The translations under genes were made by a program, and so were the position numbers. Shown in pieces: positions 883-33,675 of a stretch of DNA of 44,176 nucleotides (positions are counted from its first letter, which is position 1; each line of letters begins with the position of its first letter). The notes beneath the pieces are model-generated. The model was given only the letters and a program-made list of their open reading frames with translations. It had not been told where the DNA came from and did not search any database. This DNA is from an uncultured Bacteroidia bacterium (GTDB lineage Bacteria; Bacteroidota; Bacteroidia; Bacteroidales; Prolixibacteraceae), in NCBI GenBank assembly GCA_903902325.1, contig CAIUUO010000235.1, forward strand, positions 1-44,176, in the 5' to 3' direction.

Positions 883-1944
883 ATGAGCCAGGAAGATTCA
901 GAATTATTTGACGAAAGCGACTTATCCGAAGAGATTGAAGAATTAGCCGGACAATTTGAACATCACAGGTTTGTAGCCGATCCCGGACAGGGGTTGATGC
1001 GGGTCGACAAATTCCTTTCCAACCGCATTTTAGGTACCTCCCGCAACCGCATACAGCAGGCAGCCGATGCCGAAAGCATACTTGTGAATGGCAAACCTGT
1101 CAAATCCAACTACAGGGTCAAGCCAAATGACGAAATAACCGTTGTAATGGACTATCCCCGGAGGGAAACCAAAATCATTGCAGAGGATATACCCATCAAC
1201 GTTGTTTATGAAGACGAGGAGCTGCTTGTCGTCAACAAGCCTGCCGGGTTGGTTGTGCATCCCGGACACGGGAACTATTCCGGGACACTCGTCAATGCTT
1301 TGGCATTCAGATTTCAGGGACTCCCCTTGTACGGAGGAGATGATCCGAGACCCGGACTGGTGCATAGGATTGACAAGAATACATCCGGGTTGCTTCTGGT
1401 GGCCAAGACTGAACATGCCAAACTCAACCTGGCCATGCAGTTTTTCAGAAAAACTACCAAACGTGAATATGTGGCGCTGGTCTGGGGCAATTTAGCCAAA
1501 GATTCAGGAACCATTGAAGGAAATATTGGCCGCAGCACCCGCGACAGGCAGGTATTTACAGTTTACCCTGACGGGGATCACGGAAAACAGGCAGTGACCC
1601 ATTACCGCGTACTCGAGCGGCTTGGTTATGTTAATCTGGTAGAGTGTGTCCTGGAAACAGGACGTACACACCAAATCCGCGTTCACATGAAAGAGATCGG
1701 CCATCCGCTTTTCAACGATGAGGTTTATGGTGGCAACAAGATCCTGAAAGGCACAACTTTTACCAAATACAAGCAATTTGTCGAAAACTGCTTTGATATT
1801 CTCCCACGCCAGGCTTTGCATGCAAAAACCCTTGGGTTTATCCATCCGGTTACCCACGAGGAGATGATCTTTGATTCGGAACTTCCGGAGGATATGGCAG
1901 CGGTTATTGAAAAGTGGCGGAATTACCTGGTGAACCGCGAATAA
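883..1944 (+). CDS. rluD: RluD-type 23S rRNA pseudouridine synthase
   Basis: A 353-residue RluA/RluD family enzyme that converts uridines of 23S rRNA to pseudouridine. An acidic N-terminal extension (about 1-35) is followed by an S4 RNA-binding domain (about 40-95, with VDKFLSNRI and ILVNGKPVKSNYRVKPND). The catalytic domain carries the family signature HRIDKNTSG, with the catalytic aspartate at residue 164, and a C-terminal ETGRTHQIRVHM motif. The length is normal for RluD. It probably shares a transcript with the PASTA gene. RluD in other bacteria modifies helix 69; whether this paralogue does the same cannot be read from sequence. The stop codon lies directly against the octamer array at 1948-1979. 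Confidence 0.93.
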   Translation: MSQEDSELFDESDLSEEIEELAGQFEHHRFVADPGQGLMRVDKFLSNRILGTSRNRIQQAADAESILVNGKPVKSNYRVKPNDEITVVMDYPRRETKIIAEDIPINVVYEDEELLVVNKPAGLVVHPGHGNYSGTLVNALAFRFQGLPLYGGDDPRPGLVHRIDKNTSGLLLVAKTEHAKLNLAMQFFRKTTKREYVALVWGNLAKDSGTIEGNIGRSTRDRQVFTVYPDGDHGKQAVTHYRVLERLGYVNLVECVLETGRTHQIRVHMKEIGHPLFNDEVYGGNKILKGTTFTKYKQFVENCFDILPRQALHAKTLGFIHPVTHEEMIFDSELPEDMAAVIEKWRNYLVNRE

Positions 1945-1947
1945 TTT

Positions 1948-1979
1948 GCTAATGTGCCAAATTGCTAATGTGCTAATTT
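1948..1979. repeat. Left octamer array flanking the four-helix gene
   Basis: Four exact-phase 8-nt units (GCTAATGT, GCCAAATT, GCTAATGT, GCTAATTT) fill the space between the rluD stop and the four-helix start codon. Read on the other strand they match the units of the array at 2336-2447, so the two arrays form an inverted pair around the gene. Confidence 0.85.
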
Positions 1980-2342
1980 ATGGAAAAACGAAATATTGTT
2001 CTGGAAATGAGTTTAGAGTTTGCTTTATTAATCATTGCGTTTACAGAGCAACTTGAACAGCAGAAAAAATTTGTAATTGCTAGACAATTATTAAAATCAG
2101 GTACTTCGATTGGCGCCAATATTAGTGAAGCACAATCGTGTGAAAGCAAAGCTGATTTTATCCATAAATTGAAAATCGCAGCCAAAGAAGCAGAAGAAAC
2201 TAAATATTGGTTGATACTTTGTAAGTTATCACCATCCTATCTATTTGATGATTCACTTTTACCAAAACTTGATGAAATACAAAAATTGCTGACTGCTATT
2301 ATTTCCGTCACAAAGCAAAATAATCATGGAACCAGTCATTAG
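1980..2342 (+). CDS. Four-helix-bundle protein (S23 / intervening-sequence protein family)
   Basis: A 120-residue, all-helical protein. Its core signatures are ARQLLKSGTSIGANISEA (about 34-51) and KEAEETKYWL (69-78), which identify the family first found in intervening sequences of 23S rRNA genes and structurally related to the Avd accessory protein of diversity-generating retroelements. Biochemical function is unknown for most members; nucleic-acid binding through a basic oligomeric barrel is suggested for relatives. The gene is AT-rich compared with rluD and ddl. Its start codon follows directly on a left octamer array and its TAG stop lies in the first units of a right octamer array in the opposite orientation, so the whole gene appears as a cassette inserted between rluD and ddl. 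No reverse transcriptase or template repeat is visible. Confidence 0.88.
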   Translation: MEKRNIVLEMSLEFALLIIAFTEQLEQQKKFVIARQLLKSGTSIGANISEAQSCESKADFIHKLKIAAKEAEETKYWLILCKLSPSYLFDDSLLPKLDEIQKLLTAIISVTKQNNHGTSH

Positions 2343-2447
2343 CACATTAGCATATTAGCACATTAGCATATTATCACATTAGCAAATTATCACATTAGCA
2401 AATTAGCAAATTAGCACATTAGCACATTAGCAAATTAGCACATTATG
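2336..2447. repeat. Right octamer array, 14 units, ending in the ddl start codon
   Basis: Fourteen consecutive 8-nt units in perfect phase, variants of ACATTAGC and AAATTAGC with a few ATATTAGC, ATATTATC or AAATTATC. The first unit overlaps the four-helix stop codon and the last, ACATTATG, contains the ddl ATG. The array is the inverted counterpart of the one at 1948-1979. Confidence 0.9.
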
Positions 2448-3416
2448 AAAAATATCGCAATAATAACCGGAGGTGACTCATCCGAATATGTAGTCTCCAT
2501 CCGTAGCGGCGCCAATGTCCTGAACGCAATCGACCGCAAAATATTTATCCCCTGGATGGTATTCATCAGGGATAACAAGTGGAGTATATTGGAGGAGGAA
2601 AACACGATAGCATCTGTTGACAGGAGCGATTTCTCGTTCCAGCTCAATGGTGAAACTATCAAACTTGAATATGCCTACATCATGATTCATGGCACTCCGG
2701 GAGAGGATGGAAATCTCCAGGGTTATTTTGAAATGCTTGGAATTCCTTATTCCACCTGTGGTGTCCAGTCTTCGGCACTAACTTTCAACAAGAATTTCTG
2801 CAACAATTACCTGAAATCCTTCGGCATCACAATGGCCCGATCGATCAGGGTGATGCTGGGTGAAATAATTAATCCTTCCGAAGTAGTCAGGCAACTGTCA
2901 CTGCCGCTGTTCGTGAAACCCAGTGCCGGAGGGTCGAGTTTTGGTGTAACGAAGGTCAAGAATGAGGATGAACTTGCCGGAGCAATTGATAAGGCACTGA
3001 AAGAGAGTCCCGAAGTATTGATTGAGCAGTTTATCGACGGGAAAGAGTTTACCTGCGGAGTCGTCAGGATTGGCCACAAAAAAATTGTTTTCCCGGTTAC
3101 GGAGGTAATTCCCAAAAATGAGTTTTTTGATTACGAAGCCAAATATACGCCAGGTATGGCCGACGAAATCACTCCAGCAAGAATCAGCGAAGAACTGACG
3201 CTCGAAATCCAGGATCTATCCTCTAAAATCTACGATCTATGCAATTGCAAGGGAATCGTAAGGGTCGATTACATCCTGAAAGAAAATACTTTTTACTTCC
3301 TGGAGATCAATACGGTACCCGGGATGACAGCTACCAGCTTTATACCTCAGCAGATCAAAGCTGCGGGATTAAACCTGACAAATCTGCTCACTGAAATTAT
3401 CCAGGAATCGATTTGA
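2445..3416 (+). CDS. ddl: D-alanine--D-alanine ligase
   Basis: A 323-residue ATP-grasp ligase that joins two D-alanines for the peptidoglycan stem peptide, in the cytoplasm. The N-terminal substrate domain begins IAIITGGDSSEY, with serines in the usual place of the HEVS-like loop. The ATP-grasp portion shows LPLFVKPSAGGSSFGVTKV, the EQFIDGKEFTCGVV strand and the metal- and substrate-binding end FLEINTVPGMTATS. Length is typical. The preceding 110 bp is an octamer array that runs into the ATG, so the 5' untranslated region is made almost entirely of repeat. D-Ala-D-Ala made here is the substrate of the MurF half encoded at 21693-24179. The TGA stop starts another 8-nt array. Confidence 0.95.
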   Translation: MKNIAIITGGDSSEYVVSIRSGANVLNAIDRKIFIPWMVFIRDNKWSILEEENTIASVDRSDFSFQLNGETIKLEYAYIMIHGTPGEDGNLQGYFEMLGIPYSTCGVQSSALTFNKNFCNNYLKSFGITMARSIRVMLGEIINPSEVVRQLSLPLFVKPSAGGSSFGVTKVKNEDELAGAIDKALKESPEVLIEQFIDGKEFTCGVVRIGHKKIVFPVTEVIPKNEFFDYEAKYTPGMADEITPARISEELTLEIQDLSSKIYDLCNCKGIVRVDYILKENTFYFLEINTVPGMTATSFIPQQIKAAGLNLTNLLTEIIQESI

Positions 3417-5326: not shown

Positions 5327-5446
5327 AAAGAAGGATAAAGGATAAAGTAAAAAGGATAAAGTAAGAACGCACTAATCTGCATTAACTCATATCTCATATC
5401 TCATATCTCATATCTCATATCTCATATCTCATATCTCATATCTCAT
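5327..5446. repeat. Two heptamer arrays between dnaB and susD
   Basis: 5329-5363 holds 7-nt units of the GGATAAA and GTAAAAA type. After a 20-nt gap, 5387-5446 holds 8.6 perfect copies of TCATATC, ending exactly where the terminator hairpin starts. The first family also occurs at 19925-19975, 39789-39823 and 39890-39925; the second recurs in opposite orientation at the right edge of the window. Confidence 0.85.
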
Positions 5447-5472
5447 AAAAAAAGCCCTCTCGGGCTTTTTTT
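5447..5472. terminator. Bidirectional rho-independent terminator
   Basis: A run of A, the stem GCCC, loop TCTC, stem GGGC and a run of T form a hairpin that works on either strand. It lies 7 nt beyond the SusD stop on the minus strand and about 120 nt beyond dnaB on the plus strand. Confidence 0.85.
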
Positions 5473-18943: not shown

Positions 18944-19050
18944 AATTACAGATTAAAAATTACAGATTAAAAATTGTTCGTGCTTTTCGGATTACAATCA
19001 ATCATCATCGTTCTCCAAATCTTCAATTTGTAATTTGTAATTTGTAATTT
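18944..19050. repeat. Inverted pair of heptamer arrays at the HAD-rsmI junction
   Basis: The left arm (18944-18975) is built of alternating ATTACAG and ATTAAAA heptamers. The right arm (about 19024-19050) is AATTTGT units, its reverse-complement family, and lies inside the last codons of rsmI. The left arm differs at one of 32 positions from the arm at 24179-24210. Confidence 0.85.
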
Positions 19051-19965: not shown

Positions 19966-20913
19966 TTATCCTTTTGTTTCGGAGAACCTCCGTTTGATCA
20001 ATGTCACAAACTTATCCGCTGCTTCGCTTTTGTTCCATTTGAAATTAGCTTTCAGGTAATCGACAGCTTCCTTGATGTTGTCGAGCCTGTCAAGGGTAGC
20101 GATGGTTTCATCCAGACTCGATTTGTCGTTGTTGAATAGCTCACGCTGGAAAAGATACCTGTCGTTCAGGCTGAGACCTTCTTTGAGGCTCTTCAGCGGC
20201 TCTATTTTAAAATATTGTGTGTACTCCGTCCGGTCGTCCTGAGGTAAAGAAGCGGGAGCGAGGGGGCGAGCGAGCGAGGGGGCGAATGCAACTCCGATGC
20301 TCCCTGAGCCTGGACTCCCCTGAGCTTGTCGAAGGGTCGAAGGGTCCATATCCAAAAGACTACCCGGTCCCTGAGCTTGTCGAAGGGGGGACTCTGAAAC
20401 CTTTTCAATTAGCGCCTCTGGGATTAGACCAGGAGACCAGGAGACGGAGGGACCCGGAGATGAGGGAGCGAGGGGGCGAGGGGGTGAAAGGGCAACATCA
20501 GGACTGGGAGACTCGGGGACAGGGAGACTAGGGGACGGAGAGACGGAGAGACCCGGAGATGAGGGGATTTCTTCATGAACTGGGGACGGAGTGACCGAGA
20601 GACCGAGAGACGGAGCTTCAATGTCAGGACTGGGAGACTCGTGGACGGGGAGAACGGGGGACTCGGAGACTGGGAGACTTGGGGACTCGGGGAGTTCATC
20701 TTTAACGGACGCATGAGGGACATTGATTGCATTTTCCCGGGAAGAGAATTGGTTCAGGAGCATTTCGAACTCCTGCACGACAATTTTAGACCGTGTGATT
20801 GCCAATTCAACTTCTTCCCTGGAAAGGGAAATGTCGCCTATCATTCCGGTAGCCAGTTCGTCAAGCAGGGTCAGTTCGTCCTTGATCACTTTCAGCCATA
20901 TTTTTTTATCCAT
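19966..20913 (-). CDS. Conserved Bacteroidota protein with repeat-built linker
   Basis: A 315-residue protein from MDKKIWLKVIKDELTLLDELA; the longer frame upstream to 21015 translates an intergenic heptamer array (SFFIFHFSFF) and is rejected. Residues about 1-65 are a helical N-terminal domain. Residues about 225-315 (EPLKSLKEGLSLNDRYLFQRELFNNDKSSLDETIATLD and the final KRRF) form a second helical domain. This two-ended pattern is a conserved Bacteroidota family of unknown function, as far as I recall. The 150 residues between are Pro/Ser-rich (SPSLPVSESP, SPSPDVALSP) and derive at DNA level from short GGGAGAC- and GGGGAC-type units, plus two palindromic repeats read as LRQAQG. The gene stop lies in another heptamer array. 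Confidence 0.75.
   Translation of the reverse strand: MDKKIWLKVIKDELTLLDELATGMIGDISLSREEVELAITRSKIVVQEFEMLLNQFSSRENAINVPHASVKDELPESPSLPVSESPVLPVHESPSPDIEAPSLGLSVTPSPVHEEIPSSPGLSVSPSPSLPVPESPSPDVALSPPRPLAPSSPGPSVSWSPGLIPEALIEKVSESPLRQAQGPGSLLDMDPSTLRQAQGSPGSGSIGVAFAPSLARPLAPASLPQDDRTEYTQYFKIEPLKSLKEGLSLNDRYLFQRELFNNDKSSLDETIATLDRLDNIKEAVDYLKANFKWNKSEAADKFVTLIKRRFSETKG
20318..20387. repeat. Two GAGCTTGTCGAAGG palindromic repeats inside a coding region
   Basis: CCCTGAGCTTGTCGAAGGG occurs at 20318-20336 and again at 20369-20387, with a partial copy near 20302. Each is an imperfect palindrome (CCCT...AGGG with a TGAGCTTGTCGA core). Translated on the minus strand they give LRQAQG twice in the protein encoded at 19966-20913. 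Confidence 0.85.
20400..20700. repeat. Degenerate short-unit repeat coding for the Pro/Ser linker
   Basis: On the plus strand this stretch is a long run of short G-rich units of the GGGAGACTC, GGGGACGG and GGAGAGACC kind. It is read on the minus strand as Ser-Pro-rich peptide. The unit style resembles the intergenic arrays, but period is less regular. Confidence 0.75.
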
Positions 20914-20915
20914 CT

Positions 20916-21036
20916 GAAAAAATGAAAAATGAAAAATGAAAAATGAAAAATCAGGATCGGGTGATGCTTTTATAACGGCCCATAAAGTGAAAAAGGGAGT
21001 TACCGCATTTTTCACTTTTCATTTTTCATTTATTTT
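20916..21036. repeat. Inverted pair of GAAAAAT heptamer arrays
   Basis: The left arm (20916-20951) is about five GAAAAAT units. The right arm (about 21006-21036) is its reverse-complement family (TTTTTCA, CTTTTCA, TTTTTCA). The spacer is about 55 bp. The pair occupies the divergent intergenic region before tdk. Confidence 0.85.
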
Positions 21037-21696: not shown

Positions 21697-24179
21697 CTGC
21701 CTACGACCTTACCGAAATCTCTGCCCTGGTCCATGGGCGATTGATTCAGTATGGAACTACCGCCGATCTTCGGATACGTTACCTCTCTTTCGACAGCCGT
21801 ACCATCCTCTCCGGAAGGGAAACGCTCTTTTTTGCCCTAAAAAACGAAAGGAACGACGGACACCATTATATTACAGATGCGCGAAACAAGGAAGTCAGCG
21901 CATTTGTAGTAGAAAAGCTGCCGGTAAAAGAGGATGCGGTTACTCCAGTTTCATACATCGTCGTTGAAAATACGCTGGAAGCCCTGCAGCAACTGGCTGC
22001 CTATCATAGAAGAAGGTTCAGCTATCCGATTACGGCCATTACAGGCAGCAACGGCAAGACACAGGTAAAAGAGTGGCTTGGCGAAATACTGGGCACGAAG
22101 TTTCGTGTGGTAAGAAGTCCGAGAAGTTACAATTCGCAAATTGGCAATCCGCTCTCTGTCTGGCTGATGGACGACAGTTTTGACCTGGCGCTCTTCGAGG
22201 CAGGAATATCCAGACCCGGAGAAATGACTAAACTGGAGGAAATCCTGCATCCGGATCACGGCATTTTTACCCACCTGGGGAATGCCCATCTTGAGAATTT
22301 TTCCTCTGTGGAGGAACTCGTCAAAGAAAAAATCAAACTTTTCCTGAATTGCAGCCTGATCGTCTATTGCCAGGATTTTGAGCCAATCAATGAGGCGCTG
22401 GCGGGAGCCACTTTTAACCACCATCCACGATTTTTTCGCTGGTCGGCCAAGGAAGAGTCTGATTTGCAGTTACTCGCAAGCGAAAGCATTGGTCAGTCGA
22501 CAGAGATCAAAGCCCTCTTCAACGGACAAATCATATCGCTTACGATACCTTTTACTGATGCTGCGCATGTTGAAAACGCTGTCCATTGCTGGGCCTACCT
22601 ACTTGCCACTGGTTTCATTCCATGCAGTCTCGGAGAGCATTTCCTGCATCTTTCTACGGTTTCGATGCGGCTTGAAATCAAAAAGGGTCTCAACGGGTGT
22701 TCCGTCATCGACGACAGTTACAATTCTGATACCGCCTCATTGATCAATGCACTTGATTTCTTCGAAAAGCAGAACGATGCAAGCAAACTTAAAAGTACCC
22801 TCATCCTGTCAGATATTCTCCAATCCGGGAAAAATCCTGAAATATTATACCGGGAAGTATCCGAATACATCAGATTGCGCAATATCAGTTGTCTGATCGG
22901 TATCGGAAAGGAAATAAGCCGTTACCACGATCTTTTTAGCGCACCTGAAAAGCGTTTCTTCCCCGACACGGAAGCATTCCTGCTTCAGTTCCGCGAAACT
23001 GACTTCCGAAATGAACTTATCCTTCTCAAGGGGGCAAGAAGTTTCAGGTTCGACCGGATCTCCTCGCTTTTGCAAGAGAAAAAACATCAGACGGTTATGG
23101 AGATCGACCTGGGCGCGATGGTTCATAACCTCAATCATTACCGTCAGCAAATCAGCCCTTCCACAAAGCTGATGGCTATGGTCAAAGCATTCTCCTATGG
23201 AACCGGTTCTGTTGAAGTGGCCAGAGTCCTCCAGTTTCGCAGGGTAGACTATCTTGCCGTTGCCATTGCAGACGAAGGAATTGAATTGCGCAATGCGGGA
23301 ATTGACCTGCCGATCGTGGTGATGAACCCTGAGGAACATAGTTTCAGTACGATCATTGAGAACCGTCTGGAACCAAATATCTATCGTTTTTCCCTGTTGC
23401 GCAGTTTTGATGAGGCCTTGAGGAAAAGTGCGGTTACCAATTTCCCGGTTCATATCAAACTTGATACCGGAATGAAGCGGCTCGGATTTGATTCAGCGGC
23501 TGAGATTGCAGAAGTGACTGCCTTTATCAGGGAAAGAAATACCATGTATGTTCGCTCTGTATTCACCCATCTTGCCGTAAGTGAGGATCCCGCCAACGAT
23601 GGTTTTACGCACAAGCAATTTGAATTTTTCATGCAACTGTGCCGGATTATTACAGACGGATTTGATTATAAAATCCTGCTGCATATCCTCAATTCAGCAG
23701 GCATCGAGCGTTTCCCCGAAATGCAGCTTGATATGGTGAGGCTTGGAATCGGGTTGTACGGAGCCAGCACCAATCAGTCTGAACAGCTAAGAAATGTTGC
23801 CACCCTGAAATCAACCATCTCGCAGATCAAAATAATCGGGCCAGGAGATACTGTAGGGTACGGCAGAAATTTCAGGGCAGAACATCTTACCAGGATCGCT
23901 GTAATCCCAATAGGATATGCCGACGGTTACAGCAGAAGGCTTGGGAATGGCGTAGGGAAAGTCCTGATTAATGGAAATGCGGCCCCTGTTGTCGGCTCTG
24001 TTTGCATGGATATGTGCATGGTAGATGTGACGGACATTGATTGCAGCGAAGATGATTCAGTTATCCTCTTTGGCGAAGGTCAGCCTGTAACCAAAGTGGC
24101 TGAATGGATGGGTACGATCCCTTACGAGGTGCTCACTACTGTAGGGCAAAGGGTGAAGCGGATCTATTTTGAGGAATGA
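21693..24179 (+). CDS. murF-alr: Bifunctional MurF ligase / alanine racemase
   Basis: An 828-residue fusion. The N-terminal half (about 1-460) is UDP-MurNAc-tripeptide:D-Ala-D-Ala ligase with the ATP loop [15 protein letters not shown] and central-domain motifs GISRPGEM and [10 protein letters not shown]. The C-terminal half (about 466-828) is a PLP-dependent alanine racemase. Lysine 498 in [13 protein letters not shown] is the PLP-binding residue; [24 protein letters not shown] and PIGYADGY follow. The start MTAYDL overlaps the tdk stop by ATGA; an upstream in-frame start at 21657 is rejected. The fusion is standard in Bacteroidota and makes D-Ala (for Ddl) and uses D-Ala-D-Ala in one polypeptide. 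Confidence 0.95.
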
Positions 24180-24329
24180 ATTACAAATTAAAAATTACAG
24201 ATTAAAAATTATGGGATCAATTTAACAATTGGTATTGTCGTATAGAAGGCAGTGGAAAAGTGAATCCTCCCTCAATTTTTAATTTGTAATCCGTAATTTG
24301 TAATTTGTAATTTGTAATTTGTAATTGAT
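24179..24329. repeat. Inverted pair of heptamer arrays between convergent genes
   Basis: The left arm 24179-24210 pairs with 24274-24305 (32 bp with about four mismatches); units are ATTACAA, ATTAAAA and ATTACAG. The right side extends as AATTTGT units to about 24326. The arms touch the stops of murF-alr and of the Crp-family gene. The arrangement could act as a terminator for both. Confidence 0.85.
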
Positions 24330-28297: not shown

Positions 28298-28727
28298 AAT
28301 TGGTTCAATTCTAAAATATTACACAGAGTTTCACAGAGAAGCACAGAGTTTCACAGAGAGAAATAGTTAAATGAACTTATAATAGTCAAATACCAGGCCA
28401 ATTAAAATTCCAAATACCTAAAAGCAAAACCACACAGAAAGATAAATAATAACTCTGTGGTTCTCTGTGCTTCTCTGTGAAACTCTGTGTAACTAAATTT
28501 ACGGTGCGCAGATTTTGATATAGTAGAACCAAATATTGGTTGGTAGATATCAAATCATGCAGGGAATGCAACTTCATTTATGAATGATTGCGTATTGATT
28601 CTTCGCCAGGATTCTAATTAAAAGTTGATACAAATAAATATGTGGGCAATTATCGACTGAGCCAACTAAACATCGTAACTTTGCCGGCACAAAAGACGCA
28701 TTCGAATTCATCGCTAATTTTTTTTCT
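28298..28727. repeat. Inverted pair of decamer arrays upstream of the PFK gene
   Basis: Arm one (28319-28360) is CACAGAGTTT and CACAGAGAAG decamers. Arm two (28452-28492) is its reverse complement, identical over about 30 nt. The spacer is 91 bp without a gene. A TAACTTTG at 28676-28683 fits a -7 element and would give the PFK gene a leader of about 40 nt. Confidence 0.85.
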
Positions 28728-33381: not shown

Positions 33382-33386
33382 ATTCA

Positions 33387-33471
33387 GTGGAAAGTGAAAA
33401 ATTTAAAGTGAAAAGTGAAAAACAGGACGCTCTGTGCAATCACTTTTCACTTTAAATTTTTCACTTTTCAC
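33387..33471. repeat. Near-perfect inverted pair of GTGAAAA heptamer arrays
   Basis: 33387-33417 and 33441-33471 are reverse complements with one mismatch in 31. Each arm is built of GTGAAAA heptamers with one ATTTAAA unit. The loop is 23 bp. It starts 6 nt after the TlpA-like stop and may act as its terminator. Confidence 0.93.
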
Positions 33472-33675
33472 TTTTGAAGAAATATTTATCCTTTTTTCTC
33501 AACCCAACGCAACCATTTTAGTCTTTGATTGCATCTTAAGTTTGGTCACGAAGCCGAAAAAAAATCAAAATCTGAATAAGTAAGGGTTTTATTTTCGTTC
33601 TTTATCAACTTTTAGAGACTTTTGTGAAGATTAATTTGGTTAATTCGAACGATCGTTCCAAAACTATTTATCAGA

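Follow-up and report, generated by a model that had tools for sequence, protein, structure and literature searches.

The question raised by this locus is what kind of thing a small gene is that lies between rluD and ddl and is enclosed on both sides by short tandem repeats facing each other. The locus is part of a stretch of 44,176 nucleotides (the window), contig C235 of an uncultured member of the Prolixibacteraceae whose genome of 4.8 Mb is assembled in 304 contigs. A sequence-only reading had taken the gene and its arrays for a cassette with small non-coding derivatives elsewhere. Comparison with other genomes supports the cassette and extends it, and bears out the derivatives only in part: arrays flank most of the homologues scored, and not every genome has the gene in the rluD–ddl gap. 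The interval 1947–2445 is probably one copy of a spreading array-gene-array module, in which the encoded four-helix-bundle (4HB) protein would recognise the short repeat unit, or word, of its own arrays.

The positions of the features are given in Table 1. The left units (1947–1977) read TGCTAATG/TGCCAAAT/TGCTAATG/TGCTAAT and are followed by two T and then by the ATG at 1980. The gene had been described as starting at the base after the last left unit, but two bases separate them; the other half of that description stands, as the stop codon TAG (2340–2342) lies inside the first right unit, CATTAGCA (2337–2344). The right array has a TRF period of 8 (13.6 copies, 86% matches) and its units are inverted, so that the two arrays are indeed reverse-complement families in 8-nt phase. 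Its last base is the first base of the ddl ATG (2445); the end given earlier for the locus, 2447, takes in the ddl start codon. With at most two mismatches allowed, the TGCTAATNTGCTAAT pattern occurs 17 times in the window against 0.39 expected there, and none of 100 shuffled windows reached 17; all but one of the occurrences (16) are at the 4HB locus, which confirms that the gene lies between inverted octamer arrays of the TGCTAATN family. The low GC content reported for the gene is also upheld (32.2%, against 48.5% for rluD, 44.4% for ddl and 44.6% for the whole window). In the predicted transcript fold of the window copy, both as minimum free energy and as centroid structure, the two arms form a stem that encloses the ORF (−111.3 kcal/mol, compared with −94.2 for shuffled sequences; z −3.1).

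Table 1. Positions of the 4HB locus, its neighbours and the gene-less arrays within the window
Feature	Position	Strand	Evidence and remarks
rluD-type pseudouridine synthase	883..1944	+	PseudoU_synth_2 111.5 bits, S4 41.1 bits; upstream neighbour, context only
Left array, about 4 TGCTAATN-like units	1947..1979	+	Sequence, pattern count
4HB gene, 120 aa, PF05635 / TIGR02436	1980..2342	+	Profile scores, AF2 model, Foldseek
Right array, 13.6 copies of CATTAGCA, the left unit in reverse complement	2337..2445	-	TRF, pattern count
ddl, D-Ala-D-Ala ligase	2445..3416	+	Dala_Dala_lig_C 187.7 bits; downstream neighbour, context only
Gene-less inverted pair, AATTACAGATTAAA facing AATTTGT	18944..19050		TRF/flank print; word like that of gene locus L005
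Gene-less GACTNGGN-type arrays	20501..20693		Word like those of gene loci L001 and L002; two exact triplet matches at 20660-20690
Gene-less inverted pair, AAAAATG facing CATTTTT	20918..21031		Array listing
Gene-less inverted pair, AATTACAAATTAAA facing AATTTGT	24179..24326		TRF
Gene-less inverted pair, AGTGAAA facing TCACTTT	33386..33475		Word similar to that of gene locus L008

The encoded protein belongs to PF05635 (82.5 bits, cut-off 33.8) and TIGR02436 (90.3 bits, cut-off 24) by profile search. An AlphaFold2 monomer model (pLDDT 93.7) has four helices, and its Foldseek matches include BT_0352 (2RLD; best E 1.5e-6) and XCC0516 (2GSC; best E 1.9e-3), with a TM by query of 0.75–0.83, so that the predicted fold is a four-helix bundle like these two. 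For XCC0516, the Xanthomonas PF05635 protein, a homopentamer ring is reported in a passage of PMC4990558. Avd, which a passage of PMC10053308 says that PF05635 resembles, was matched as 4DWL with a probability of 1.00 but an E of 0.2, plant pectin methylesterase inhibitors ranking equally high; the Avd-like structure 8UB8 is also among the matches. Of 296 genomes sampled across the phylum, 233 have a member of the family, and the genome from which the window comes has 17 matches, 16 of them above the family cut-off.

How general the inverted flanks are was judged by a flank score, the best local alignment of the 250 bp upstream of a gene with the reverse complement of the 250 bp downstream, and by a threshold of 13, just above the 99th percentile (12.5) of shuffled flanks from 66 loci. 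The 4HB loci are the best matches of genome searches, 80 further regions among the matches listed, and 23 loci similar to the window protein, not all of which have an unbroken ORF; the 140 that were scored, from 45 genomes, are those of the 143 distinct loci with at least 100 bp on each side. Inverted flanks reach the threshold at 110/140 of these loci, many of which are paralogues or of common ancestry and hence not independent counts, against 23/432 control ORFs from the fetched pieces, a number raised by ORFs that lie beside 4HB modules. The corresponding counts for direct orientation are 16/140 and 24/432, and direct-repeat flanks were rejected as a general rule for 4HB genes. By group, inverted flanks are found at 13/13 loci of the window's own genome, 27/29 of the same genus, 56/82 of the same family or order and 14/16 from elsewhere; 30/140 loci are below the threshold.

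Among the best-scoring 4HB loci taken phylum-wide, only 12/30 pass. The median for a locus's own flanks is 12.5 in this set, against 9.0 for mismatched pairs, and 3.3% of 870 mismatched pairs reach 13. A further set, drawn from five genomes with named loci (two of them of candidate phyla) and five plasmid records, gave 18/24, or 14/19 once loci already among the 140 are removed; its plasmid loci overlap the plasmid set treated below. The expectation that homologues generally have flanking arrays is thus borne out among the 140 loci, though less so phylum-wide.

All 13 scored loci of the own genome pass, out of its 17 matches. The others are L003 and L014, which lie at contig ends and where inspection by eye shows arrays (flanking L003 left and right, and to the right of L014), L011, which has in-frame stops and a contig end, and L017. 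The last (G000:C140) is a 190-aa relative below the PF05635 cut-off, with a flank score of 11.0 and without arrays, and is perhaps of a different subfamily. The flank words of the own-genome 4HB genes include GACTTGGG, GACTGGGAC, ATGAGAT, TTGACAA, TGCTAATG, TTCGACAA, TTTTGGA, GAAAAAG and CTAAAGG; inverted arrays occur at most loci, and close relatives among these genes have a common word.

On plasmids, 12 of 16 scored 4HB loci pass (16 of 28 matching records were scored). The passing loci are from Cyanobacteriota, one Treponema and one Bernardetia, and the misses are Chlorohelix (12.5), Monoglobus (10.5) and two cyanobacterial loci, with short repeats visible by eye in their flanks. The direct match is stronger than the inverted one in 4/16 (L269, L273, L279, L282). 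Several of these plasmid genes lie in CRISPR, restriction and DISARM/BREX-type clusters, where 5/8 loci pass: those at cas2/cas1 (L273, L274), cas10/cmr3 (L280) and drmD/pglX (L279), and L275, between a helicase gene and the gene preceding a methyltransferase. The sites below the threshold are hsdS/hsdR (L268, whose unannotated ORF had its end set by hand and contains stops), helicase/methylase (L277) and a position upstream of cas1 (L282). A passage of PMC3936711 notes 18 PF05635 genes within CRISPR-cas loci; because of the array flanks, the present loci suggest that insertion explains PF05635 genes in such surroundings.

Rather than one fixed sequence, the arms have a word of their own at each locus. 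They are periodic in 87/110 loci, against 1/110 when shuffled, with a period of 7 in 27 loci, 8 in 24, 14 in 17, 9 in 8, 6 in 5, 10 in 3, and 12, 13 and 15 in one each; in most loci the word is 6–9 nt long. In 48/82 loci (11 expected) the best fit to a left arm is the right arm of the same locus and not that of a clade partner, which suggests that word variants tend to be common to both arms of one locus. The core of the case for a module, absent from the sequence-only reading, is that the word differs between loci and co-varies with the protein. In the clade of the window protein the word is TGCTAATN here, TGCCAATN in a Parabacteroides (L080) and TGCGAATG/TGCAGATG in Mucilaginibacter (L091, L092).

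Co-variation was assessed on pairs whose members belong to different genomes and for which no neighbouring ORF was found in common, in a check of at most 1500 bp per side and often about 700. Arms matching in the same orientation increase with protein identity, from 51/2696 pairs at 20–30% to 104/278 at 50–60%, 37/69 at 60–70% and 24/27 above 70%, while the matches in opposite orientation in these four bins number 11, 10, 0 and 1. For pairs at least 50% identical the arms match in 165/374 (44.1%), compared with 11/374 (2.9%) in opposite orientation and with a mean of 6.6% and a maximum of 13.4% in 2000 permutations of the arms. Over all pairs from different genomes and different neighbourhoods, the correlation between arms and protein is 0.45 (opposite orientation 0.17; permuted maximum 0.064). 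Protein and word change together, in a fixed orientation and at different sites, and so behave as a module.

The site itself also varies. rluD and ddl are on one piece in 25/30 loci. Among the 8 genomes of the genus, the whole gene is present between them in two, the own genome and G006, and as a remnant in one, G004, where it is deleted; it is thus not fixed at this place. Gene-less arrays occupy the gap in G003 and G007 (AAAGGAT-type) and in G001 and G005 (GTGAAAAT-type), and G002 has no array. Such differing contents (gene, remnant, arrays of other words, none) suggest that the gap was entered more than once. Outside the genus, 14/17 genomes have at most 65 bp between the aligned ends of the rluD and ddl proteins. 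These compact sites are those of other genera and are too diverged from the occupied ones for a comparison of target-site duplications; no insertion event, target duplication or excision was caught in the loci compared. By locus, L049 and L051 have AAAGGAT-type words in the gap and L050 and L053 GTGAAAAT-type words, while L057, outside the genus, holds an inverted pair of its own there, with CACATAG-type words. The gap of L051 looks nested.

Arrays without a gene are frequent. That the same inverted arrays recur without a gene at other loci, as the sequence-only reading had it, is true of the rest of the genome but not of the window, where the gene-less arrays are made of other words. A 292-kb sample of the own genome holds 86 merged TRF arrays of period 7–9. 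Counted with overlaps, matches to the TGCTAATN triplet number 168 in the own genome (G000), 36 in G004, 17 in G006 and 2 in G026, and the remaining 37 genomes have none; a reversed-pattern control for this triplet gave 0 matches. The genus genomes with a close clade gene are G000, G004 and G006, the gene of G004 having an in-frame stop and being accompanied by a deleted copy. For GACTNGGN the matches number 461 in G004, 29 in the own genome, 8 in G003, 3 in G006, 2 in G001 and none in the other 36; G000, G004 and G006 were seen to carry genes with GACT-type arms, and G003 and G001 are without one among the scored loci. ATGAGAN matches are highest in the two genomes with a matching-arm gene (87 in G007, 58 in the own genome). 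Four congeners also have 9 to 27 of them and three other genomes 1 to 3, all without a matching-arm gene among the scored loci, from which it appears that arrays do not strictly need a resident gene. The tie of dispersed repeats to the gene is thus tight for TGCTAATN and loose for ATGAGAN.

Arrays of period 6–9 with at least three copies number 10 in 400 kb from six 4HB-rich genomes, against 2 in 400 kb from five without PF05635 (one-sided P 0.019), and 60 in 292 kb of the own genome. With looser periods, G039, which is without 4HB genes, has 5.0 arrays per 100 kb, as many as or more than four of the six 4HB-rich genomes (2.0 to 10.0).

What lies between gene-less arms was examined in 37 TGCTAAT regions from three genomes, among the matches listed (for the own genome, up to contig C152). 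Inverted pairs less than 600 bp apart make up 16/37, of which one holds a whole gene, one a deleted gene, and 14 are gene-less; the interiors of these, 42 to 212 bp long, show no blastn match (E 1e-3) to the gene or to one another. The proposal that the small derivatives resemble MITEs therefore keeps one example, the single internally deleted gene copy, in G004 (L052/L379), but is rejected for 14/15 of the sampled TGCTAAT pairs, whose interiors are unrelated. In the orthologous pair L254 and L386 the flanks are 82–84% identical and the arms are present in both, with unlike interiors, which fits decay of the interior while the arms persist.

A conserved non-array core beside TGCTAAT arrays was considered and rejected, as the sharing detected by blastn is a second array family facing the first. 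Of seven unpaired TGCTAAT arrays inspected by eye, out of 21, six face an array of another family, the partners being CTCATAT in L249, L252, L259, L383 and L392 and TTTTTCAT in L264. A mosaic of this sort, an array of one family facing an inverted array of another, is present in the window at 5337–5447. The seventh array, L391 (G006:C264:1100-3800), does not face another family; its inverted TGCTAAT arrays are separated by about 2 kb that include two larger ORFs, and it is possibly a composite unit.

Pairing of the arms around the ORF in the RNA fold, words that follow the protein, and many arrays without a gene would also be seen if the arrays were binding sites of the 4HB protein on its own transcript, gene-less arrays being sites of a trans regulon and mobility incidental; indeed, translational regulation is proposed for TAACTGA heptamers in Beggiatoaceae in a passage of PMC4679880. 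Such autoregulation does not sit well with the changing contents of the rluD–ddl gap in the 8 genus genomes (gene, deleted gene, AAAGGAT-type or GTGAAAAT-type arrays, none), nor with modules that adjoin unrelated genes, plasmids included, and tandem arms on two sides exceed what a regulator would seem to need. It is rather unlikely as the main explanation. The frequency of gene-less arrays and the likeness of the two arms of a locus would equally follow if slippage or hairpin template switching made arrays at unstable intergenic spots and 4HB genes merely inserted there. Passive hitchhiking of this kind is disfavoured, and seems very improbable, given that word and orientation co-vary with the protein across different neighbourhoods, that such flanks are rare at control genes (23/432, even with ORFs beside 4HB modules included), and that TGCTAATN is absent from 37/41 genomes and GACTNGGN from 36/41.

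The similarity in fold to Avd (4DWL, probability 1.00 at E 0.2, with pectin methylesterase inhibitors ranking alike) would accord with a role for the 4HB protein as an Avd-like helper, if a Y1 (IS200/RAYT) transposase or a reverse transcriptase acted on the hairpin and so mobilised the module in trans. Matches to Y1_Tnp are present in 8/10 tested genomes and to RVT_1 in 6/10. Yet G042 is without a Y1_Tnp match and has arms above the threshold at five of its 4HB loci; RVT_1 matches are absent from G006, G168 and G045; G073, a genome in one contig listed as 100% complete, with 9 PF05635 matches and arrays unscored, has neither; and the sole RVT_1 match of the own genome is on contig C46, not C235. 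An RT or Y1 transposase as universal partner is unsupported, and with Y1_Tnp absent from 2/10 genomes and RVT_1 from 4/10, neither is likely to be one, which makes mobilisation in trans quite unlikely.

The spreading module, the reading preferred here, has its nearest kin in the 23S rRNA intervening sequences (IVS) and, in behaviour, in the RAYT-REPIN systems. In RAYT-REP/REPIN systems a low-copy gene lies between inverted repeats, the repeats are also dispersed without the gene, and the repeat family follows the gene family. The module is similar in its flanked low-copy gene, its gene-less dispersed repeats and its word following the protein, but its repeats are short tandem words and not single palindromes, its gene-less interiors are unconserved, and the only gene of the window module is PF05635, with no Y1 transposase between the repeats. 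MITEs and DDE transposons have terminal inverted repeats of fixed sequence, and the full DDE element has a transposase. The module resembles them in its inverted ends, its low-GC insert and the one internally deleted copy (L052), but it is without a transposase, its ends are not fixed in sequence, and the sampled gene-less pairs are without a common core, internal deletion accounting for 1/15 gene-less TGCTAAT pairs. Likeness to diversity-generating retroelements, in which an RT lies beside template and variable repeats, is confined to the Avd-like fold (4DWL at E 0.2, 8UB8); C235 has no RVT_1 match, the one match being on C46.

Intergenic tandem 7-mers are also what the short heptamer repeats consist of: TAACTGA in Beggiatoaceae, cyanobacteria and Bacteroidetes, GGGAATC in Xanthomonas, and GGGGA(C/T)T in Nostoc, together with the repeats called STRR. 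Passages of PMC4692102 count 70 and 75 convergent inverted heptamer pairs in two Xanthomonas genomes, and the passages of that paper and of PMC4679880 on heptamers name no protein gene as the source of the repeats. With IVS the module has in common the protein family and an ORF within inverted repeats forming an RNA stem, which the window copy is predicted to form (z −3.1), but this copy lies between rluD and ddl and not inside a 23S rRNA gene. IVS are further marked by their removal from the transcript by RNase III. In the Coxiella IVS (PMC4990558) the terminal stem is 28 bp long and GACAGAT heptamers lie in tandem on the upstream side of the ORF; the modules here differ from IVS in having tandem arrays on both sides, a locus-dependent word, and many gene-less arrays elsewhere.

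Sequence comparison shows the architecture and its generality, the match between arms, the co-variation of word and orientation with the protein across genomes and neighbourhoods, the many same-word gene-less arrays in gene-carrying genomes, and a site that is filled in one set of species and compact in another. From these we infer binding of the own word, movement, and an enzyme. The 4HB protein, probably a ring oligomer like XCC0516, would bind several units of its own word in register, either on hairpin single-stranded DNA or on the RNA stem that the arms can form, and binding in register would let the DNA bounded by arrays be copied into new intergenic sites. Because the module encodes no strand-cutting or copying enzyme, this would be supplied by the host, the favoured source being template switching at the hairpin during replication or repair. 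A long stem of arms with the ORF in its loop, as in the 23S rRNA IVS, might allow a low-cost stay inside operons.

We know of no described class of elements with tandem-array ends whose locus-specific word co-varies with a protein of no known enzymatic function. A wider interpretation, possible but held tentatively, is that these modules represent a class of selfish DNA that is undescribed and crosses phyla, with co-evolution between a ring protein of no enzymatic activity and the tandem word that it reads; the intergenic heptamer and octamer repeats of many bacteria, such as the Nostoc STRRs, Xanthomonas GGGAATC and TAACTGA, would be its footprints, and the 23S IVS would be those of its members that inserted into rRNA. 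A search of largely open-access literature gave no paper that connects PF05635 genes with inverted tandem arrays. The module reading ties a protein family of no known function to abundant intergenic tandem repeats of 7–9 nt, and points to an undescribed spreading element behind some unexplained bacterial short repeats; heptamers, in a passage of PMC6344855, are the most abundant intergenic tandem repeats across a wide range of prokaryotes, with no clear functional clue. It would also explain, in a way open to test, where 23S intervening sequences and the PF05635 genes within CRISPR-cas loci come from. If the protein does read its own word, a single genome can contain at least a dozen natural pairs of protein and word (13 were scored here), from which a recognition code might be worked out.

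The array-gene-array design may be broader than one protein family. The GxxExxY family (TIGR04256) was examined because a control ORF of that family, L183, had high-scoring flanks. Of its loci (L200-L206, L283-L311), 24/35 reach 13 in inverted and 14/35 in direct orientation, a weaker contrast than that of the 4HB loci. The words are mostly of the CACAAAG/CACAGAG/CACAAAT kind, and the own genome has 7 TIGR04256 matches. The window has an inverted CACAGAGTTT / CTCTGTGCTT pair with a GxxExxY-type word at 28322–28479. A promoter-like string, approximately gTAACTTgTAt, is not visible in the window copy, where the ORF starts two bases past the array, but lies between the left array and the start codon at the 4HB loci L005, L006, L008, L011 and L015 and also at the GxxExxY genes in L200 and L202.
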